Under the pieces are notes generated by a model. That model saw nothing but the letters and a program-made list of their open reading frames with translations. It was not told where the DNA came from and searched no databases. Made by a program: the position numbers and the translations under genes. A stretch of DNA of 64,000 bases from Pagrus major (lineage: Eukaryota; Chordata; Actinopteri; Spariformes; Sparidae). Location: assembly GCF_040436345.1 (NCBI RefSeq), contig NC_133232.1, forward strand, positions 28,335,315-28,399,314. The letters run 5' to 3'. Below, in pieces: positions 10,697-59,148 of the stretch (positions are counted from its first letter, which is position 1; the number at the start of each line of letters is the position of its first letter).

Positions 10697-12344
10697 ATGG
10701 GCAACTGGTGGTCAAAGGTTAGGAAATTATCACTGAGTCAGAACAATAAATCGTCTTCTTCCACTTAAATTTGTCTTCTTTGTCTGTTTCTTCTTCTTAG
10801 TTTTTGTCCGCTTATTCATCGTCTACGTCTTCTCCGTCTTCATTTTCTTTTTCTTCATCTGCTTCGACATCATCTTCTTTGTTGCCTTCTTCATCTTAAT
10901 CTTCATCCTAATCTTCATCATCTGCTTCTTCGTCTTATTCTCGTCTTCTTTGTCTTTGTTTTCTTTGTAGTCTTGTTATTAGTCTTTTCGTCTTTTTGGT
11001 CTTCTTCTTCATCATTTTCTTCTTCTTCATTTTCTTTGTCTTCTTTGTCATCTTCTTCGTCTTCTTCTTCGGGGTCTTCTTCTCTGTTGTCTTTTTCATT
11101 CTTCCTTCGTTCATCTTTGTATTTATCTGTGGTTCATTGGCAGTCTACAAACCAACTTTACAGTTGGATACTTAACCGAGAGAGTGCTCAAATGTACTAC
11201 AGTTGTTTCCAAACAGTCTGTTGCAAAGTCAAACATTTTTCCTGTATGTTCTAATCCAAATCTGAGACACCAGAGCCTGGGGACTTGATTGAGATCGACC
11301 GAGGTCTCTATCAGCACTGGGCTGTGTATGTTGGTGATGGCTGGGTTGTTCACTTGACAGCACCACCAGGCGGTGAGTCTCCTGTCTGGACTGCTGCTCT
11401 CTGATACTGACCTGTCCTAGTCTGGAATAATATCAGCCTACTGTCACTGTAACATTTACAGACCAGATTATCAAATTAGATTGTTTGTTTGAACTGATTC
11501 ATGATTAATAAACCATGAAAAAAAACATGTTGCAATATTTAGTTATAATCCTGCACAAATTCTGTCTTTCTCTCTTTTCATTCATAGCTAAAGTCCTAGG
11601 TATAATTTCCGACAGCATGTCTGTCCAAGGTGCAGTTTCCGACAGCTTGATGTCTTTCTCAACTGAGGAGGCCATGGTGAGGAAAGAGAAGCTGCAGAAG
11701 GTGGTGGGAGACAGCAAATGGACAATCAACAACAGCCTGGACAAGACGTACGAGTCCCGCTCACCTTGCATCATTGTGGAGGAGGCGCTCATGCAGGTGG
11801 GCAATGTGATGGAGTACTCCGTCATCACCAAGAACTGTGAGCACTTTGTAAACAAGCTGCGCTACGGGAAAGCTGTGTCCTTGCAGGTCAGTGGACCCAT
11901 TTATTTTTATTTTTATAAGCAAGACTCTTTTTGTGGCTGGGGTGAAAAACAGAGAAGGTTTAGCAATGTTAGACAGGATGTAGCCAGTTGTTTTTGAAAG
12001 TGTGATTCTTTGGTTTTTAAAACTCTGTATTTCCCAGAGTTGTGAATGATTTTAAAGGACTTTAGATTGTCATGAAAAATCAGCTCATCATCTGACTTAA
12101 TGATGTTTGTTGCCCTCCACAGGTGCTTAAGGCAGCTGTTGCTATAGTGGACACTTTAGTGGGTGCAGTACAGGACTCTTCAGAAGTCGATAGACAGACT
12201 GGCATTTTCCTCTGGCTGTCCGCCTTTTTAGTTTTTTTTTCTTTAACCCTCCTGTTATATTGCGTATTAGGACAGTGTGGGACAAGTGGGTACTTCCACA
12301 ACTCTATAACCGAGGCCCTAATGTCACAGTGGATGAAAGGCTAG
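10697..12344 (+). CDS. PLAAT-family copy C2, with rewired acceptor and transposon-derived C-terminus
   Basis: Exons: 10697-10717 (MGNWWSK), exon 2 ending 11372 ([16 protein letters not shown], then VVHL), 11588-11886 (ends [18 protein letters not shown]) and 12123-12344. Both His residues and the Cys are present, so the active site looks intact. At 11253-11254 the acceptor used by paralogues (CTAG/TCC) reads CTAA; the nearest in-frame AG would start exon 2 at 11267 (CTGAG/ACACCAGAG). On that model the protein has about 215 residues. The last exon has lost the paralogous stop through a deletion and runs into a piggyBac relic at 12247, ending at TAG 12342-12344; a hydrophobic stretch (IFLWLSAFLVFFSLTLLLY) spans the join. 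Polyadenylation signal at 13075. It may be expressed with a new tail or be in early decay. Confidence 0.75.
10746..11140 (+). repeat. TCT/TTC-rich tract in PLAAT intron 1 (C2)
   Basis: Imperfect TCTTCT/TTCGTC trinucleotide-rich sequence, the longest of a set found at the same intronic place in C3 (15480-15605), C4 (19925-20045), the relic after 36029, C9 (50108-50220) and C11 (62810-62935). It encodes poly-Ser in one frame. It lies directly after the first coding exon and about 110 bases before the exon 2 acceptor. Confidence 0.85.
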
Positions 12345-12724
12345 TGGAATTCAGAGGTCGCTGCCAGTTTAAGCAAAGTAAATGCCTTCCAAACCAGCTA
12401 AATATTGCATTTTTAAAAAATCAATATCAAAACCATTGTATTTTATATGTAAGTCTTTTCAATGGATATTAAAAAAGTTTTAACATGCATTTTTTTATGA
12501 AAAACGAGTGAATTATCCTCATTGAACCAAGATCTGTGAGAGATAAAGGACACCACTGCACTAAATATTGATTGAAATGGTTAGTAATGGAGGTAATAAT
12601 GAGATATAAACAATGCTTATTGGGATTTTTTGGTTTCTGACACTTTTCGACAATTAAACATGCCCCGGGTCAAATTGACCCAGGAACATTATTGCTGTTC
12701 CTGAGAAACAAACATAACAGGAGG
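12247..12724 (+). mobile_element. piggyBac-derived element inside the last exon/3' UTR of C2
   Basis: Bounded by TTAA on both sides (12243-12246 and 12725-12728), the piggyBac target signature. The ends are inverted: CCCTCCTGTTAT at the left, ATAACAGGAGG at the right. The empty site is visible in C4 (TTTTAATTGATGGATAAG near 21368). Inside, a frame from about 12275 reads GPNVTVDERLVEFRGRCQFK, matching the piggyBac transposase block around the first catalytic Asp. It is a 478-bp internally deleted copy. The C2 reading frame crosses it in a different frame from the transposase remnant. Confidence 0.85.
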
Positions 12725-13170
12725 TTAATTGATGGATAAGAGATTCAAAGGGGTGAAAAGCTCCTTGAATCAAATCTGAATGTCTCTGAAGTCCAAAATG
12801 TTTATTGTTGCCAATACATGATAAGACAAAAATGTCTTAGACAATCAAAATAATCTAATTATATATCACAAACAGCCTTGTAATGTCCCATACACTACAC
12901 TACACTTCCTCTTTATTGTAAGAGCACCTCCATGAACTCAGGGTCATGATGACTGAACCAATTCAACACTTCTGTGCTTGTCTTATGACATGTCCCTGCT
13001 GATTGTTTGACAATTTAGCTGGAGTTTATAAAGTTCTGTCTTCCTCGGACATTAAATTGTTTGTCATTGTTTTGAATAAAGAATAATTTGTATGATTCTG
13101 GATGGTAGTCTTTCTTTCTGCAACATTTCACACGGTGGCCATTTTCCTCTGACGTCATGCTCAGTGTGGG

Positions 13171-13277
13171 AGTTTCCAGCAGCATGTCTGACCCAGGTGA
13201 CTGAACCAAGAAGAACGAGCCCCACTCAGCTCGCATCATTGTGAAGGAGGCACTCAGGCAGGTGGGCAATGTGATGG
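13171..13277 (+). pseudogene. PLAAT exon 3 fragment with internal deletion
   Basis: Starts AGTTTCCAGCAGCATGTCTG as in exon 3 of C11, then jumps to the part encoding [20 protein letters not shown], with a stop (TGA) at the join. The middle of the exon, the Cys motif and splice sites are absent. It is followed by a second copy of the 3' UTR module (TTATTGTAAGAGCACCTCCA). It reflects partial duplication or gene conversion between units. Confidence 0.8.
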
Positions 13278-13490
13278 CTTTATTGTAAGAGCACCTCCAT
13301 GAACTCAGGGTCATGATGACTGAACCAATTCAACACAATTCAACACTTGAATGCATATTCGAGATTAATTTCAACATAAAAATGTTGAAATGGCCTAAAT
13401 TGATTTATAGAAACATCACTGGAGTGAGTAGACAGTTTTTCGTAAATTTACTGGAGGATCTACCAACCTGAATTTAGTCTGTGTAAAATG

Positions 13491-19878: not shown

Positions 19879-21236
19879 ATGGGCCAGTCACAGGTTAGGA
19901 AATGATCACTGAGTCAGAACACTAAATCGTCTTCTTCCACTTCTTTGTCTTCTTTGTCTGTTTCTTCCTCATCTTCTTCTCCTTCATCATCTTCTTTTCA
20001 GTTTTCTTACTCTTTTTCTTCGTCTTCTTCTTCGTCTTTATCCGTGGTTCATTGTCAATCTCCAAACCAACTTTACATTTGCACTCTGCCATCTACTGCA
20101 TGTGTAGATGCTGCACTTGTTCGGTCAATGGAGGCAATTCAGCTCAATGTTATCTGCTTTATTTATCAGCTATATGATTTAACTTTAAACTCTTATATTA
20201 TCTGTGCTTATCTGTGTAACACAGATTATGTCAGAGTTCTCAAATGTACTGCAGTTGTTTCCAAACAGTCTGTTGCAAAGTCAAACATGTTTCTTGTATG
20301 TTTTAATCCAAGTCTGATCAGGAACCAAAGCCTGGGGACTTGATTGAGATCTTCCGAGGTGGCTATCAGCACTGGGCTGTGTATGTTGGTGATGGCTGGG
20401 TTGTTCACGTGACATCGCCACCAGGCGGTGAGTCCCCTGTCTGGACTGCTGCTCTCTAATCCTGACCTGTCCTAGTCTGAAATAATATCAGCCTGATGTC
20501 ACTGTAACATTTACAGACCAGATTATCAAATTAGATTGTTTGTTTGAACTGATTCATGATTAATAAACCATTAAAAAAACATGTTGCAATATTTAAATCA
20601 CAATCCTGCACAAATTCTTTCTGTTTCTCTCTTTTTAGTCATAGCTGAAGTCCCAGGTATAGTTTCCAACAGCTTGATGTCTGTCTCAGCTGACACGGCC
20701 ATGGTGAGGAAACAGAAGCTGCAGGAGGTGGTGGGAAACAACACATGGAGAATCAACAACAACCTGGACAAGGAGTACAAGCCCCGCTCAGCTTACATCA
20801 TTGTGAAGGAGGCGCTCAGGTGGGTGGGCAAGAGGATGAAGTACTCTGTCATCAGCAAGAACTGTGAACACTTTGCAAACGAGCTGCGCTACGGAAAAGC
20901 TGAGTCCCGGCAGGTCAGTGGACCCATTTTTTACAAACAAGACTCTTTTTGAAGCTGTGGTGAAAAACAGAGAAGGTTTAGCAATGTTAGACAGGATGTA
21001 GCCAGTTGTTTTTGAAAGTGTGATTCTTTGGTTTTTAAAACTCTATATTTCCCAGAGTTGTGAATGATTTTAAATGACTTTAGATTGTCAAGAAAACTCT
21101 GCTCATCATCTAACTTAAAGATGTTTGTTGCCCTCCACAGGTGCGTGAGGCAGAAGCAGCTACAACAGGTATTGTTGCACTGGGCGCTGTGGCTATTGGT
21201 GCATTAGTAACTGCAGCAGGACTCTCCAGAAATTGA
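19879..21236 (+). CDS. PLAAT-family copy C4 (acceptor of exon 2 altered)
   Basis: Exons 19879-19893 (MGQSQ), exon 2 ending 20427, 20645-20913 and 21141-21236. Active-site residues are present: [18 protein letters not shown] and [19 protein letters not shown]. The exon 2 acceptor used by C3 (CTAG) reads TTAA at 20303-20306. Two downstream AGs keep the frame: CCAAG/TCTGAT (start 20313) or GATCAG/GAACCA (start 20322). With the first, the protein has about 164 residues. The tail exon encodes [20 protein letters not shown] and a short [11 protein letters not shown] end, a shorter membrane helix than in C3. Polyadenylation signal at 21718. The domain is intact; whether splicing works needs RNA. Confidence 0.8.
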
Positions 21237-21773
21237 TAGACAGATTGAGAGACATTTTCCTCCACCTCTCCTCCTATCTAAAAATGTCAACTTTTTAATT
21301 AAAAGGCCAAGATGATTTAAAAAAAATATTTTTAGATAACCCTTTTTAAAGATTTTTATTTTTTGTTTTAATTGATGGATAAGAGATTCAAAAGGGTGAA
21401 AAGCTCCTTGAATCAAATCTGAATGTCTCTGAAGTCCAAAATGTTTATTGTTGCCGATACATGATAAGACAACAATGTCTTAGACAATCAAAATAAGCTA
21501 ATTATATATCACAGACAGCCTTGTAATGTCCCATACACTACACTACACTTCCTCTTTATTGTAAGAGCACCTCCATGAACTCAGGGTCATGATGACTAAA
21601 CCAATTCATCACTTCTGTGCTTGTCTTATGACATGTCCCTGCTGATTGTTTGACAATTTAGCTGGAGTTTATAAAGTTCTGTCTTCCTCTGACATTCAAT
21701 TGTTTGTCATTGTTTTGAATAAAGAATAATTTGCATGATTCTGGATGGTAGTCTTTCTTTCTGCAACATTTCA

Positions 21774-36008: not shown

Positions 36009-36029
36009 ATGGGCCAGTGGTGGTGACAG
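36009..36029 (+). pseudogene. Dead PLAAT first coding exon (premature stop)
   Basis: Follows the usual leader (GAAGGTTTACAGACGAAACA) and starts ATGGGCCAGTGGTGG, but the next codon is TGA (36024-36026) where C3 has TCA. The donor CAG/GTTAGG is intact. The TCTTC tract after it breaks off near 36225 into a type II promoter copy, so no exon 2 belongs to it. It is the remnant of a lost unit. Confidence 0.85.
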
Positions 36030-52191: not shown

Positions 52192-54072
52192 TTGGAAGCA
52201 TCTATGGAAATGCTTAATTATAAGAAGGAGACGGCTGCAGCCATTGCTGAAGCAGAAGCACTCGAAGCTGCTGTTGAATTGAATAGTGAGAAACATTTGC
52301 ACAGTTGCAAATCAAATTTCAATTCTTCCCCATTAGATCCCATACTACGCACTGAACAGTATGTTATTGACCAAGCCAAAACACGACAGACAGAACTCCA
52401 GTTATGTGATGATGGTGTTGCAGTAAAAACAGAGCCAAGCCCTAGCTGCAACATTTCACCTTCATATCTCCAACCTGAAGCCAAACTTTCCCTTAAAGAC
52501 CAAATCAATACTGGCTCTGAATTACCTCAGCTTACCTCGCAACAGCCACACATCTATGAAGATGGATATATGTGCCATTCCCGCCAAGTTAAGTTCGACA
52601 ACAATCAGGCCACTCCTGTGCAGCATTTCACACCCAGAAATGACACTGGTCGTCTTACTCACGTGCCTTATCCCATGTCTCCAAACTTCAATGATCGCAG
52701 CTCAAACATAAATGACTTTGTCAGATATTTCGCTCGTCATGAGCTTGTGGCTACAGGCTTACTTCAGTTTAACGATCAACCTCAGAACTATAGAGCTTGG
52801 AAACGTTCTTTCCAAACCGCAACCAGTGGTTTAGACCTGACACCAAGCGAGGAGATGGATCTTCTGCTTAAGTGGCTTGGAAAAAAGTTGGCAGAACATG
52901 TTGAACAGATAAGAGCAATACACATTCATCATCCAGACGCAGGATTGGAAATGATATGGGACAGGCTCGAACAAACTTATGGCTCTGGGGAAGCGATCGA
53001 AGATGCTCTATTCAAACGAATCGACTCCTTCCCAAAGATAACAAATCGAGACTATTCTAAACTAACAAAGTTGAGCGATCTGCTGATGGAACTTCAGTCT
53101 GCCAGGGCTGAGGGAGACTTGCCTGGCCTCTCTTTCCTCGACACAGCAAGAGGTGTCAACCCAATAGTACAGAAGCTTCCATTTCGTCTGCAGGAAAAGT
53201 GGGCATCAGTTGGTGCATCTTACAAGCGACAAAAGTGTGTTCCCTATCCTCCCTTTGCCTACTTTGTAGACTTTGTTAGCCAGGAGGCTAGGATTGGGAA
53301 TGATCCGAGTTTCAACTTCATCACTCACACAGACATGGCTCCTAGGGCAGAGAGGACAGTTTGGAAGCCAAACAAACGTCAGGAAGTCTCTGTACACAAA
53401 ACCGAGGTGTTGCGCAGAGCCACCTTTGACACTGGTGAGTCCCCAATGAAATCTGATGACTGTGATAAACTGTGTCCCATTCATAGAAAACCACACCCTC
53501 TGCGTAAATGTCGCGCATTTAGAGAGAAGCCCATTGAAGATCGCAAGATATTCTTAAAAGAGAACAATGTGTGCTTTAAATGCTGTTCTTCGTCATCACA
53601 CATTGCAAAGAACTGCAAGGTTAAGATTCAATGTTTTGAATGTAAAAGTGAGAGACACCACACAGCGCTGCACCCTGGACCCGCACCCTGGACAGAAGAC
53701 GTGGACCCTGCTCCAGAGTACGGCGGGGAGGAGGAAACCTCAACTCAACCTGAAGTCACTAACAAATGCACAAAAATTTGTGGTGGGGATCTGACAGACC
53801 GGTCTTGCTCTAAAATATGTCTTGTAAAGGTATATCCAGCTGGCCACAGAGAAAAAGCAGTGAAACTGTATGCAATTCTGGACGAGCAGAGCAACAGGTC
53901 ACTAGTTCATTCACAGTTCTTTCAAGTATTCAATGACGAAAGTCCAAACGCTCCTTACACATTGAGAACGTGCTGGAGTAAAAGAATCCTCAGGAAGAAG
54001 GGCCAGCGGCTACGAAGTGGAATCTCTGGATGGAACTGTCCGCATCCCATTACCCAGTCTCATAGAATGTAA
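52192..54072 (+). CDS. BEL/Pao gag-protease frame (5' and 3' frame breaks)
   Basis: A frame of about 626 residues: an N-terminal Glu/Ala-rich coiled segment, the Pao gag core (YRAWKRSFQTA, LTPSEEMDLLLKWLGKKL), two cysteine-rich knuckles near residues 460-490 (CFKC, CFEC) and the start of the A17-type protease (ILDEQSNRSL near 563-572). Coding homology begins earlier, from an ATG at 52026, in another frame, so a small indel near 52130 breaks the 5' end. A second indel near 53980-54010 shifts the frame inside the protease region, after which homology continues in the overlapping frame. It is therefore a damaged copy. Confidence 0.85.
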   Translation: MEASMEMLNYKKETAAAIAEAEALEAAVELNSEKHLHSCKSNFNSSPLDPILRTEQYVIDQAKTRQTELQLCDDGVAVKTEPSPSCNISPSYLQPEAKLSLKDQINTGSELPQLTSQQPHIYEDGYMCHSRQVKFDNNQATPVQHFTPRNDTGRLTHVPYPMSPNFNDRSSNINDFVRYFARHELVATGLLQFNDQPQNYRAWKRSFQTATSGLDLTPSEEMDLLLKWLGKKLAEHVEQIRAIHIHHPDAGLEMIWDRLEQTYGSGEAIEDALFKRIDSFPKITNRDYSKLTKLSDLLMELQSARAEGDLPGLSFLDTARGVNPIVQKLPFRLQEKWASVGASYKRQKCVPYPPFAYFVDFVSQEARIGNDPSFNFITHTDMAPRAERTVWKPNKRQEVSVHKTEVLRRATFDTGESPMKSDDCDKLCPIHRKPHPLRKCRAFREKPIEDRKIFLKENNVCFKCCSSSSHIAKNCKVKIQCFECKSERHHTALHPGPAPWTEDVDPAPEYGGEEETSTQPEVTNKCTKICGGDLTDRSCSKICLVKVYPAGHREKAVKLYAILDEQSNRSLVHSQFFQVFNDESPNAPYTLRTCWSKRILRKKGQRLRSGISGWNCPHPITQSHRM

Positions 54073-57000
54073 CGACATTCCTAACAACAGAGATGAAATT
54101 CCAACGCCCAATGTGGCTCTTCATCATGCACACCTGAAGTCAGTGGCACACCTCATCCTAGAGATTGACCCACAAGCCCCAATTATTCTTCTCTTAGGAC
54201 GGGACATTATCAGAGTTCATAAAGTCCGCAAACAGGTTAATGGCTCACACAACCTACCCTATGCACAGAAGTTGGATTTGGGGTGGGTTATTGTGGGCAA
54301 CGTGTGCCTAGGTAGGGTCCACAAACCACTGACGATCAATACCTTCTACACCAACACCACAGAGTCAAGGCGTCCTACTCTCTTTGATCCATGCCCTAAC
54401 GTGTTTCATATCAAGGAAAACTACAGCGACATCCAGGTCACTAATCACTCCACAACATATTCTGAGGAGAACTTCTCCTGTGAAAATGACCACCTGGGAT
54501 GCACTGTGTTTAAGCGGACCAAAGATGACAACCAGGTGGCTCCTTCGATTCAGGATGCCTCCTTCATGAAAATAATGGATGAAGGACTATGGAAGGATTC
54601 AAACAACAGTTGGGTAGCGCCATTACCCTTTAAATGTCCACGTCAGAGGCTCCCCAACAACAGGCCCCAAGCACTGAAGTGTCTCATGTCTCTCAAGCGC
54701 AACTTTGAAAGAAAGCCTGAAATGAGAGACCACTTCCTAAGCTTCATGGAGAAGATGCTTGAAAATGGCCATGCAGAGTTAGCTCCTCCTCTCAGTGAGG
54801 AAGAAGAACGATGGTACTTACCAACATTCGGTGTGTACCACCCGAAGAAACCAAAGAAAATCCGAGTTGTGTTCGATTCTAGTGCCCAATACAATGGTGT
54901 GTCACTCAACAATGTGCTATTAATGGGGCCTGACCTGAACAACACACTGCTTGGTGTACTGATTCGCTTCAGAAAGGAAGCTATTGCCTTTACGGCTGAC
55001 ATAGAACAGATGTTCTATTGTTTTTTGGTAGAGGAGGGTGACAGGAACTTCCTACGTTTTCTGTGGTTTCAGGACAATGACCTCTCCAAAGACATTGTGG
55101 AGTATCGCATGAGTGTCCACGTCTTTGGTAATAGCCCCTCGCCTGCAGTGGCTATTCATGGCCTGCACCAGTCTGTTCAGGTCAGCGAGTTCCTGCCTAC
55201 CACAGAAGCTGCTGTCAACTTACTAAAAAGGACACAGGATGGTCTCTCCAAATCAAACCTGAGGCTGCATAAAATCGCAGCAAACAAGAAAGAGGTCATG
55301 GAAGCCTTTCCGTCCAGAGATCATGCAAGTGACCTCAAAGACTTGGATCTTGAGGCAGGAATGCTGCCAATGCAGCGCAGTCTTGGAATCAATTGGAACC
55401 TACAAACAGACTGTTTCTTCTTCAGTGTCTCCGATGAGATAAAGCCTTACACTCTGCGGAGTGTCTTATCCACAGTAAATAGCCTCTATGATCCTCTTGG
55501 GTTTGTAGCACCTGTTACTATTCAAGGCAAGGCTATTTTGAGAGAACTCACTGGCGAAAATGGTGACTGGGATGCGCCATTACCTCAAGAAATGGAGGAA
55601 GCTTGGACATCATGGCGAGCTTCTTTGGCAGAACTGTCCAATCTTTCCATCTCCAGACCCTATACTGAAACTTCACCCTCAGCAGCTGTCAGAAGAGAAT
55701 TATGTGTTTTTTCTGATGCATCAACCAAAGCTATTGCTGCAGTCACATATCTAAAAATCACAGACACAGCCGGAAACAACTCTGTTGGGTTTGTCATGGG
55801 GAAAGCCAAGCTGGCCCCCCGCCCTGAGCATACAATACCAAGACTGGAACTCTGCGCAGCAGTGCTTGCTGTTGAGTTAGCAGACCTTGTCTCAGCAGAA
55901 CTAGACCTTCAGCTCGATGCTATAACCTACTACTCAGACAGCAAAGTGGTCCTAGGCTACATTAATAATGAAACTAGGCGCTTTTACATTTATGTCAGCA
56001 ACCGGGTACTAAGTATCCGAAGATCCTCTCATCCAGACCAATGGCGCTTTGTGCCAACAGACCAGAACCCTGCGGATCATGCAACACGTTCTGTTGCTGC
56101 AGGCTACTTAAAAGACACCAACTGGCTCAGTGGGCCCAAGTTTCTGTCCGTACCAGAGCCAAGTATCTCTGAGAGCACCTATGATCTTGTTGATCCAAGC
56201 TCAGACCCAGACATCCGGCCTCTAGTGTCTACTTTAAGCACTACAACACCATCCAAGCAGCTTGGTTCCCAAAGATTTGCCAAGTTCTCTTCTTGGAAGA
56301 CGCTGACTCGTGCTATTGCTCGCCTCAGACACATAGCCTGTCTTTTCAGCACAACCCTGATGCAGAACAGCTTCTGTAAGGGCTGGCATTACTGCAAAGC
56401 AAAGTTTGATGTTGAGGAGTTCAATCAAGCTTCAGCCATAATCATTCGAGCGGTACAAGAGGAAGTCTACAGTCAAGAGATCAAATGCATCCAAAAACAC
56501 AAGAAGATTCCCAAAAGTAGTCCACTCAAAAATCTGGACCCTTTCATTGACATGCACGGTCTTCTGAGAGTCGGAGGCCACCTCCACCATTCGAGCCTTG
56601 ATCAGAATGAAAAGACTCCTTTGATTATTCCTGGCAAACATCACATTGCCACTCTACTCATCAGACGTCATCACGAGCAGATCCATCACCAAGGTCGGCA
56701 GTTTACAGAAGGGGCTGTCCGTTCAGCTGGTTTTTGGATAGTTGGTGGGAAGAGAAAAGTAAGCAGCATCATCCATCAGTGTGTAACTTGCAGACGGCTG
56801 AGAGCTCCACTTAGCATCCAAAAAATGGCCAGTCTTCCAGCTGATTGTCTTTCAACAGAACCTCCCTTTACAAATGTTGGGTTAGATGTGTTTGGCCTAT
56901 GGAGTGTCTCCTCACGTCGAACCAGAGGAGGCCTTGCACTCAGTAAACGGTGGGCGGTGATCTTTACATGTATGAGCGTAAGAGCCGTTCATATTGAAGT

Positions 57001-57793
57001 CATAGAATCCCTTGACACATCCAACTTCATTAATGCACTTAGGCGATTTATTGCTGTGCGTGGGCCACTCAAACATATTCGTTCGGATCGTGGCACTAAC
57101 TTTTTTGGTGCCTGCAAAGACTTGAAGATACCTTCAAACATTGACAGTACAACTGTGAAGACTTACCTGTCAGACCAAGGTTGCTCTTGGACCTTCAATC
57201 CTCCGCATGCTTCCCATTTCGGTGGAACATGGGAAAGGATGATTGGTCTTACAAGGAGAGTTCTGGACTCCATGTTTCTCCAGCTGAAAGACAAACTTAC
57301 CCATGAAGTGCTTGTGACCTTCATGGCAGAAGTAGCAGCAATTATCAATGGCAGGCCTCTTGTTCCTGTGACCACTGATCCTGATGATTTGTTTATACTC
57401 ACACCGGCTGCTCTTCTTACACAAAAAGTGAACATTGTTCCTGCTCCTGCAGGCAAGTTTGAGGCTTCAGACCTCTATAAGCGCCAATGGCGGCAGGTTC
57501 AGCACCTGTCCAACACTTTCTGGGACAGATGGCAGAAGCAGTTCCTCCCAACACTACAAGCACGCAAGAAATGGCAGTCCATTCATCCGAACATCAAGTC
57601 AGGAAGTGTTGTTCTGCTCAAAAACAGTCAAGTACCAAGAAATGAATGGCCTCTTGGACTGGTAACACAGACCTTCCCTAGCAAAAATGGGAAAGTGCGC
57701 CAAGTTGAGGTGAAGGTCATTAAACCAGGAGGGACTACTCTCTTCCTTAGGCCTATCACGGAGATAGTGCTTCTTCTCCTCGCAGATGCTTAG
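54017..57793 (+). CDS. BEL/Pao pol frame: RT, RNase H, integrase (RT active-site segment deleted)
   Basis: About 1258 residues. Rough order: rest of protease and linker (1-280), reverse transcriptase (280-500; FTADIEQMFYCF near 324, VFGNSPSPAVA near 369), RNase H (SDAST near 567 and YYSDSKVVLGYINN near 640), integrase zinc finger (HHEQIHHQG to CVTCRRLR, 880-925), integrase core Asp/Asp/Glu (VGLDVFG, SDRGTN near 1023, GGTWERM near 1071) and a C-terminal Pao domain with EWPLGLV. Between AIHGLHQSVQ and TTEAAVNLLKRTQ the family normally has a stretch with the YxDD polymerase motif; here it is missing in frame. The polymerase should be inactive. No stop interrupts the rest. Confidence 0.9.
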   Translation: MESLDGTVRIPLPSLIECNDIPNNRDEIPTPNVALHHAHLKSVAHLILEIDPQAPIILLLGRDIIRVHKVRKQVNGSHNLPYAQKLDLGWVIVGNVCLGRVHKPLTINTFYTNTTESRRPTLFDPCPNVFHIKENYSDIQVTNHSTTYSEENFSCENDHLGCTVFKRTKDDNQVAPSIQDASFMKIMDEGLWKDSNNSWVAPLPFKCPRQRLPNNRPQALKCLMSLKRNFERKPEMRDHFLSFMEKMLENGHAELAPPLSEEEERWYLPTFGVYHPKKPKKIRVVFDSSAQYNGVSLNNVLLMGPDLNNTLLGVLIRFRKEAIAFTADIEQMFYCFLVEEGDRNFLRFLWFQDNDLSKDIVEYRMSVHVFGNSPSPAVAIHGLHQSVQVSEFLPTTEAAVNLLKRTQDGLSKSNLRLHKIAANKKEVMEAFPSRDHASDLKDLDLEAGMLPMQRSLGINWNLQTDCFFFSVSDEIKPYTLRSVLSTVNSLYDPLGFVAPVTIQGKAILRELTGENGDWDAPLPQEMEEAWTSWRASLAELSNLSISRPYTETSPSAAVRRELCVFSDASTKAIAAVTYLKITDTAGNNSVGFVMGKAKLAPRPEHTIPRLELCAAVLAVELADLVSAELDLQLDAITYYSDSKVVLGYINNETRRFYIYVSNRVLSIRRSSHPDQWRFVPTDQNPADHATRSVAAGYLKDTNWLSGPKFLSVPEPSISESTYDLVDPSSDPDIRPLVSTLSTTTPSKQLGSQRFAKFSSWKTLTRAIARLRHIACLFSTTLMQNSFCKGWHYCKAKFDVEEFNQASAIIIRAVQEEVYSQEIKCIQKHKKIPKSSPLKNLDPFIDMHGLLRVGGHLHHSSLDQNEKTPLIIPGKHHIATLLIRRHHEQIHHQGRQFTEGAVRSAGFWIVGGKRKVSSIIHQCVTCRRLRAPLSIQKMASLPADCLSTEPPFTNVGLDVFGLWSVSSRRTRGGLALSKRWAVIFTCMSVRAVHIEVIESLDTSNFINALRRFIAVRGPLKHIRSDRGTNFFGACKDLKIPSNIDSTTVKTYLSDQGCSWTFNPPHASHFGGTWERMIGLTRRVLDSMFLQLKDKLTHEVLVTFMAEVAAIINGRPLVPVTTDPDDLFILTPAALLTQKVNIVPAPAGKFEASDLYKRQWRQVQHLSNTFWDRWQKQFLPTLQARKKWQSIHPNIKSGSVVLLKNSQVPRNEWPLGLVTQTFPSKNGKVRQVEVKVIKPGGTTLFLRPITEIVLLLLADA

Positions 57794-57849: not shown

Positions 57850-58555
57850 TTTAGTTAGATGTTAGAAGTCTTTTTTGCTCATGTGTGTTTTTGGTTGTGG
57901 TCACTTTAAGAAACTCAGGAACTAAATTACAGGGAGTTGTGTCATGTGGCTAGTAACCAGGAAGTAAGCAAGAGAGCTGTTGAGAGCTGCTGTTTTGTTC
58001 CATCTGAGTCAATCCAGCGACATATGCATACATCTTATGCCTTTGGTAGCATCATGGGTATGTACTAGTTTGTTTTATCGTTATCTACAATTGCAGATTA
58101 TTGTTTTGTGACATTCTGTGAAGTTTGATGCTAAAAAAGTTACCAAGCTAACCACTCTGTAACTGAGCCATTGCAAGTTCATGAGAGCATAATTACAATT
58201 AAGAAATGAGCAGGAATTGATTACATGTCAAGATATTATTTCATATATGACGTTTCAAGTTAAAAATGTAATTAATACATGAACCCTGTCACAGTTAAAA
58301 ACAATTAAAAAGGAAAACAAGTGGATTAATTCATATTGAAGATTGAGCTGGTACATTTACATTGTGGATTTTGTATGTTAAAAGCAAGCACAGCGTTGAT
58401 TATATTTTCTGTATATCTGTCCTAGTTTCACCTTTGCTCGCAACGTCAATAAACCTGTGGACAAAGGGACAACTGTCTTCAGAGTCTTGATGTTAGGAAG
58501 GAGTTTATCTGACTGTCAAGTTATGCACAGCGCACGTGTAATGAGGACAGCACAG
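57850..58555 (+). repeat. 3' LTR of the BEL/Pao element
   Basis: Matches the 5' LTR with few substitutions and small indels (for example CACTTTAAGAAACTCAGG here versus CACTTTGTTGTGGAAATTCAG). A short purine-rich GGCGGGGAG just before it may be the polypurine tract. Followed by target duplication TGATT and then C9 intron text. Confidence 0.9.
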
Positions 58556-59148
58556 TGATTCTTTGGTTTTTAAAACTCTATCCCAGAGTTGTGAATGATT
58601 TTAAAGGACTTTAGATTGTCAAGAAAATTCTGCTCATCATGTAACTTAAAGATGTTTTTGCCCTCCACGATGGTCCAGGCAGCGATTGCCATAGCATTTT
58701 CTCTTTGGCCTACAATACTCCCTATAGTGCTTCCTATAGTGGCTGTATCAGCACTCATCAGATATGCAAAATGATAGACAGACTGACAGACATTTTCCTC
58801 CACCTCTCCTCCCATCTGAAACTTTCCACTTTTTAATTAAAATGGCAAGATGAAACATCTTATATTTTTAGATAATTTGTTTTTAGGGATTTTTAGTTGT
58901 TTTTTTTCTGTAATTGATGGATAAGAGATTCAAAAGGGTGAAAAGCTCCTTGAATCAAATCTGAATGTGTCTGAAGTCCAAAATGTTTATTGTTGCCAAT
59001 ACATCATAAGACAAGAATGTCTTAGACAATGAAAATGAGCTTATTATATATCACAAACAGCCTTGTAATGTCCCATACACTACACTACACTTCCTCTTTA
59101 TTGTAAGAGCACCTCCATGAACTCAGGGTCATGATGACTGAACCAATT

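Follow-up and report, generated by a model that had tools for sequence, protein, structure and literature searches.

A tandem array of PLAAT-like genes spans a 64,000-nucleotide window of the Pagrus major genome (NC_133232.1, positions 28,335,315 to 28,399,314; coordinates below are those of the window) and extends beyond its end. In one gene of this array, copy C2, the open frame of the last exon runs through former 3′ untranslated region (3′ UTR) into a remnant of a piggyBac transposon. We tentatively propose, at somewhat short of an even chance and on the strength of sequence and modelled membrane insertion, that C2 has a new membrane anchor made of former UTR and transposon DNA, with targeting unlike that of its paralogs. 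What we observe directly are the sequence of C2, the family of the element and, in the array's recent copies, more amino-acid change than silent change.

The coding part of the C2 tail exon (12123 to 12344, forward strand) begins directly after the acceptor CCCTCCACAG and stays open for 73 codons up to a TAG at 12342-12344. Its frame crosses the left TTAA target site (12243-12246) and enters the element at 12247, codon 42 (12246-12248) being a hybrid, and residues 42-73, 32 in number, are coded in frame by transposon sequence. Across this join, at residues 28-49, lies the best hydrophobic segment of the tail (IFLWLSAFLVFFSLTLLLYCVL, 12204 to 12269, forward strand), a new predicted transmembrane segment of 22 residues with an energy of -4.05 on a hydrophobic insertion scale. 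The first-pass annotation of this DNA had already placed the frame entry, the 32 new residues, the TAG and a helix across the join, all of which we recover. It had also called the tail transposon-made, which is right for the 32 element-coded residues and only partly so for the helix, where 14 of the 22 residues come from former 3′ UTR and target site and 8 from the element.

With the element removed in silico, the tail is 44 residues long and ends SLIDG, the frame closing three residues on, and this empty-site sequence holds a borderline helix (0.01). Paralog energies are -1.30 (C5 and C7), -0.72 (C3), -0.71 (C11), 0.19 (C4), 1.08 (C10) and 2.81 (C12), and the human PLAAT3 helix, in what we take to be its sequence, gives 0.21. 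We made 2000 dinucleotide shuffles of 12195-12341; in 796 of them the opening run was 19 residues or longer, and none of these reached -4.05. On the Kyte-Doolittle scale C2 is not extreme (2.35; C5 and C7 2.70, C3 2.67, C11 2.56, empty site 1.78). In the C2 frame the target site and transposon end together read LTLLLYC, and TTAA followed by the family's terminal repeat reads LTLLLCCGSN-stop in the same frame, so that the added hydrophobicity comes with the transposon end itself. The new predicted helix is not homologous to the C-terminal helix of the paralogs; in C2 the segment that codes for the latter has been shortened and has lost its register.

The element itself (12247 to 12724, forward strand, 478 bp) is flanked by TTAA at 12243-12246 and 12725-12728, as first annotated, and its ends form terminal inverted repeats (14 nt, 93%); the family ends are also present at L010, L020, L021 and L030. 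A genome search with the element returned 14 matches, itself included, the best of the others being L010/L019 (contig C8), with 87% identity over element positions 19-478. The 5′ ends of the family start TTAACCCTCCTGTTATGTTGC (L021, L030); the C2 element keeps 18 bp of this end (12247 to 12264, forward strand) with one difference, and then passes at a junction into transposase sequence that lies 771 bp from the TTAA in L011. The transposase block YNRGPNVTVDERLVEFRGRC begins at 12302, in a frame other than that of C2, as the annotation had stated, and the stop-free stretch holding the transposase remnant runs from 12302 to 12469 on the forward strand, with VTVDERLVEFRGRC near its start and likewise outside the C2 frame. 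Neither this fragment nor the 73-residue tail matched any Pfam family, and the fragment matches the piggyBac structure 6x67 weakly (E 0.026). The piggyBac identity given at first pass is borne out by relatives: a 133-residue frame of the same family at L011 matches Pfam DDE_Tnp_1_7 (PF13843) at 6e-16 and 6x67 at 1.9e-16, and a related full-length frame of 637 residues at L015 matches them at 8.6e-71 and 6.9e-83. Judged by these matches, the family is of the piggyBac-type DDE transposase kind, and the C2 remnant is a deletion derivative of it with other copies in the genome. Compared with L010 and L011, the alignment reads as a loss of 6 bp from the C2 element, which removed a TAG that would otherwise fall in the C2 frame. 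From 12725, the start of the second TTAA, the sequence is again like that of the paralog at 21368 (97.3% over 447 nt), and 12 of 442 nt differ from 12729 onward, which indicates that the insertion is younger than the split from, or conversion with, that paralog. This region common to paralogs, 3′ UTR and flank, covers 12729 to 13170 on the forward strand, with an AATAAA found by eye at 13075-13080.

How the frame came to pass its old stops is less simple than the single deletion invoked at first pass. Paralog tails end at a first TGA in C4, C5 and C7 and at a second in C11 and C12; C10 stops at a TAG adjacent to the first; C3 passes both and ends at a third. In C2 the two usual sites read CGA (12188) and TGG (12200), and, counted from the C2 frame, both fall in frame 2. 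We therefore reject one deletion as the cause, the paralog alignment showing a frame offset together with a substitution and small indels. The distance from acceptor to TTAA is 124 nt in C2 and 208-255 nt in C3, C4, C5, C7 and C12, a net loss of 84-131 bp in C2. A genome search with 12123-12246 found only itself; since it also missed weakly similar paralog tails recovered by local search, it shows only the absence of a close second copy. Elsewhere in the array, C3 (from 16687) passes both usual stops and C10 (from 63975, past the window end) ends FFRRR, and these differing ends suggest that tail turnover is general in the array.

We infer that C2 is spliced as modelled, translated, inserted in membranes and changed in location; the order of events may have been as follows. 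C2 would belong to a tandem PLAAT array that is diversifying rapidly, and indels in the C2 tail exon would have shortened the paralog-type helix segment and shifted the frame off the old stops. With the frame out of register with those stops, translation would continue through former 3′ UTR that is rich in T. At a TTAA in this former UTR a piggyBac element would then have inserted, either as such or as a derivative that had been shortened before, and the resulting LTLLLYC would have lengthened a hydrophobic run of borderline strength enough to give a strong predicted membrane helix. Of the 24 residues after this helix, the first 15 carry no basic residue. The C2 enzyme would thus be held in membranes by a helix of UTR and transposon origin, with targeting different from that of its paralogs. 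The fullest form of this account, in which the inherited anchor was lost, a new one arose from 3′ UTR and a piggyBac end that, read together with its target site, gives LTLLLC in one frame, the organelle of phospholipase action changed and the array was positively selected, seems to us unlikely as a whole.

The same facts could describe a gene that is recently dead or dying, its tail indels and insertion being tolerated decay and its open frame a matter of chance. The tail exon has slipped out of register and lacks some of the helix segment, and other copies are broken: C9 exon 3 has stops, C8 has lost the Cys of NCEHF, and an apparently orphan tail exon lies at 58670. We consider this explanation improbable, though with an appreciable chance of being right. 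Exons 2 and 3 of C2 are open, with NCEHF, both His motifs and the splice sites retained, and amino-acid change in excess of silent change is unexpected under drift, where the ratio tends to 1. In a codon model of nine copies (without C1, C6, C9 and other partial or divergent copies), omega was 2.09 (tested against 1, 2dlnL 12.4, p 4.2e-4). It was 2.43 without C5, 3.22 without C5 and C8 and 2.18 without C2 and C5, each at p ≤0.0015 against 1; C5 was left out of some sets for a misaligned exon 3 start, and C8 for the lost Cys. Among C2, C3, C4, C7, C10, C11 and C12, the nonsynonymous proportion (pN) exceeded the synonymous (pS) in 21 of 21 pairs, which are not independent, 15 of them at p <0.05. 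The six pairs with C2 all show this excess (Fisher p 0.00049-0.028), as in C2 versus C3 (39/281 nonsynonymous, 1/76 synonymous, p 0.00049). In the set of C2, C3, C4, C5, C7, C8 and C10 it holds in 19 of 21 pairs, with p <0.05 in seven, six of which include C2. Divergence of introns and 3′ flank between C2 and C3, C4, C5, C7 and C12 is 4.9-6.1%, and nonsynonymous divergence 9.8-22% (the C5 value inflated by misalignment). In 33 of 36 pairs, again not independent and with C5 inflated, nonsynonymous change was greater than the change in introns and flanks at p <0.05, the exceptions being C3-C10, C4-C8 and C7-C8. GC-biased conversion is not favoured as the source of the amino-acid excess: four C2-private changes run from A/T to G/C and three in reverse. 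As a family-level observation, diversifying selection on LRAT-type genes extends over 11267-63818 and L032 (copies C2-C12 without C1, C6 and C9; omega 2.1-3.2). The excess of amino-acid over silent change in recent copies makes the catalytic part of C2 unlike a drifting pseudogene, and C2 itself appears to be part of a fast-evolving group and not a relic.

Several points nevertheless weigh against a functional new anchor. The selection tests cover exons 2 and 3, with the tail outside them. The comparison of nonsynonymous and synonymous change that the first-pass annotation had suggested for these exons comes out above 1 for the recent copies, but the changes private to C2 number 8 nonsynonymous to 0 synonymous with p 0.15 when C11 and C12 are added and C5 and C8 dropped (14 to 0 in the set with C5 and C8 and without C11 and C12), so that the changes of C2 itself are too few to show selection. 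In the set with C5 and C8, only one of the 15 pairs without C2 reaches p <0.05, and pS exceeds pN in 2 of 21. The omega signal persists when C2 is removed and is thus a feature of the recent copies collectively. NG86 ratios against the divergent copies C1 and C6 are below 1 in 15 of 15 pairs (0.58-0.89), so the older divergence looks constrained. T-rich DNA tends toward hydrophobic runs, 36 of the 796 shuffles scoring at or below 0, and the parameters of the insertion scale were not taken from a tool. Finally, the acceptor of C2 exon 2 has G at -3 (TCTGAG), a GAG also found in C1, C6 and C9.

C2 lacks Lys and Arg in the 15 residues past its predicted helix, where C3, C4, C5, C7, C10 and C11 have one to three. 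The lack of the basic residues that follow paralog helices suggests altered targeting, and we infer that so hydrophobic and non-basic an anchor would favour membranes of the endoplasmic reticulum (ER) type. A changed localisation of C2 is plausible in light of published truncations of the PLAAT3 tail. PLAAT3 with 18-20 helix residues deformed mitochondria and had 10-20% of full-length activity, whereas with 15 or no helix residues it showed neither. When the tail end was made shorter, some of the PLAAT3 relocated from peroxisomes to mitochondria or the ER (PMC9338259). It is quite unlikely, in our judgement, that C2 is made with its new tail but that the tail is neutral, position being set elsewhere, for instance by the N-terminal MGNWWSK. 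First exons of this type recur in the array (MGNWWSK or MGQWWSK/Q at 10697, 15428, 50073 and 62755; MGQSQ at 19879 and, beyond the window end, at 70930) and resemble N-myristoylation signals, and C12 has an open frame with no strong helix (2.81). However, helix loss in PLAAT3 and PLAAT4 abolished organelle deformation (recruitment assay; PMC9338259).

On the forward strand, the coding part of the first coding exon of C2 is 10697 to 10717 (MGNWWSK, donor GTTAGG). Exon 2 (11267 to 11372, end set by eye) holds the first part of the LRAT domain with the two His motifs HW and VVHL (Pfam LRAT 1.8e-12), and exon 3 (11588 to 11886, start set by eye) the second part with NCEHF (Pfam LRAT 6.8e-21). We take the two His and the NCEHF residues to be catalytic. 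Exon 3 also matches solved structures of PLAAT4 and PLAAT3, and by its domain and retained motifs C2 belongs in the PLAAT phospholipase/acyltransferase family; the PLAAT3 Cys is given as Cys-113 (PMC9338259). The real message might have another 3′ end, through retention of intron 3 or a different last exon, and never reach the element; the exon 3 frame does run open into intron 3, to a stop at 11995-11997. This is very unlikely, as the donor at 11886 (CAG, then GTCAGT) and the acceptor of intron 3 are intact and common to paralogs. An assembly or haplotype artefact can practically be dismissed: tandem arrays are difficult to assemble, but the contig that holds the window (C18) is 38 Mb long, in a genome of 786 Mb and 25 contigs, and the element has exact TTAA boundaries.

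Queries with the C2 exons over 103,684 bases in and beyond the window gave 16 matches for exon 2 and 14 for exon 3 (E ≤0.001), broken copies counted. The first exon at 36009 carries a stop, and MNQSQ occurs at 66388 and 85011. Copy C8 (50829-51089) reads NFEHF where others read NCEHF, and the exon 3 acceptor regions of C8 and C10 are CATGGGT where other copies have TAG or CAG. The apparently orphan tail exon covers 58555-58700, its splice acceptor now CACG. An exon 3 remnant (13207-13277) adjoins C2 and is followed at 13278-13336 by a 59-bp exact repeat of 12911-12969, and two long open frames at 52192-57793 are retroelement-like by eye only.

Transposon-made C-termini, including piggyBac ones, are already known, and T-rich noncoding DNA is known to yield membrane helices; new is the combination of the two, in which a transposon end, read in a frame other than that of the transposase, would complete a replacement anchor. 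The CSB-PGBD3 fusion, in which piggyBac serves as an alternative 3′ terminal exon, is like C2 in that a host gene gains its C-terminus from piggyBac, whereas C2 enters a non-transposase frame by read-through within its last exon and gains only a short tail (PMC2268245). Emerging sequences in yeast likewise illustrate that T-rich non-genic DNA can give a membrane helix, but in C2 the predicted helix would take the place of the tail that an enzyme already had, and is completed by a transposon end (PMC7005711). The PLAAT3 truncations, which tie PLAAT activity and location to the C-terminal helix and tail, are laboratory changes to a human protein, while C2 would be a natural replacement (PMC9338259). 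The decay of plaat1 in low-vision vertebrates is similarly natural damage to the C-terminal membrane segment of a fish PLAAT, but a loss where C2 has a replacement, and plaat1 showed little positive selection, one branch excepted (PMC10760033). Among literature titles and abstract openings we found nothing on point for a link between PLAAT and transposons or a transposon-made membrane tail, and no report of such a fast-changing PLAAT array.

If expressed, C2 would offer a stepwise and testable replacement of a membrane anchor by noncoding and transposon DNA, in a family in which anchor length is known to decide activity. In the recent copies of the array, the catalytic part has been changing faster than the introns have, as often happens in genetic conflict.
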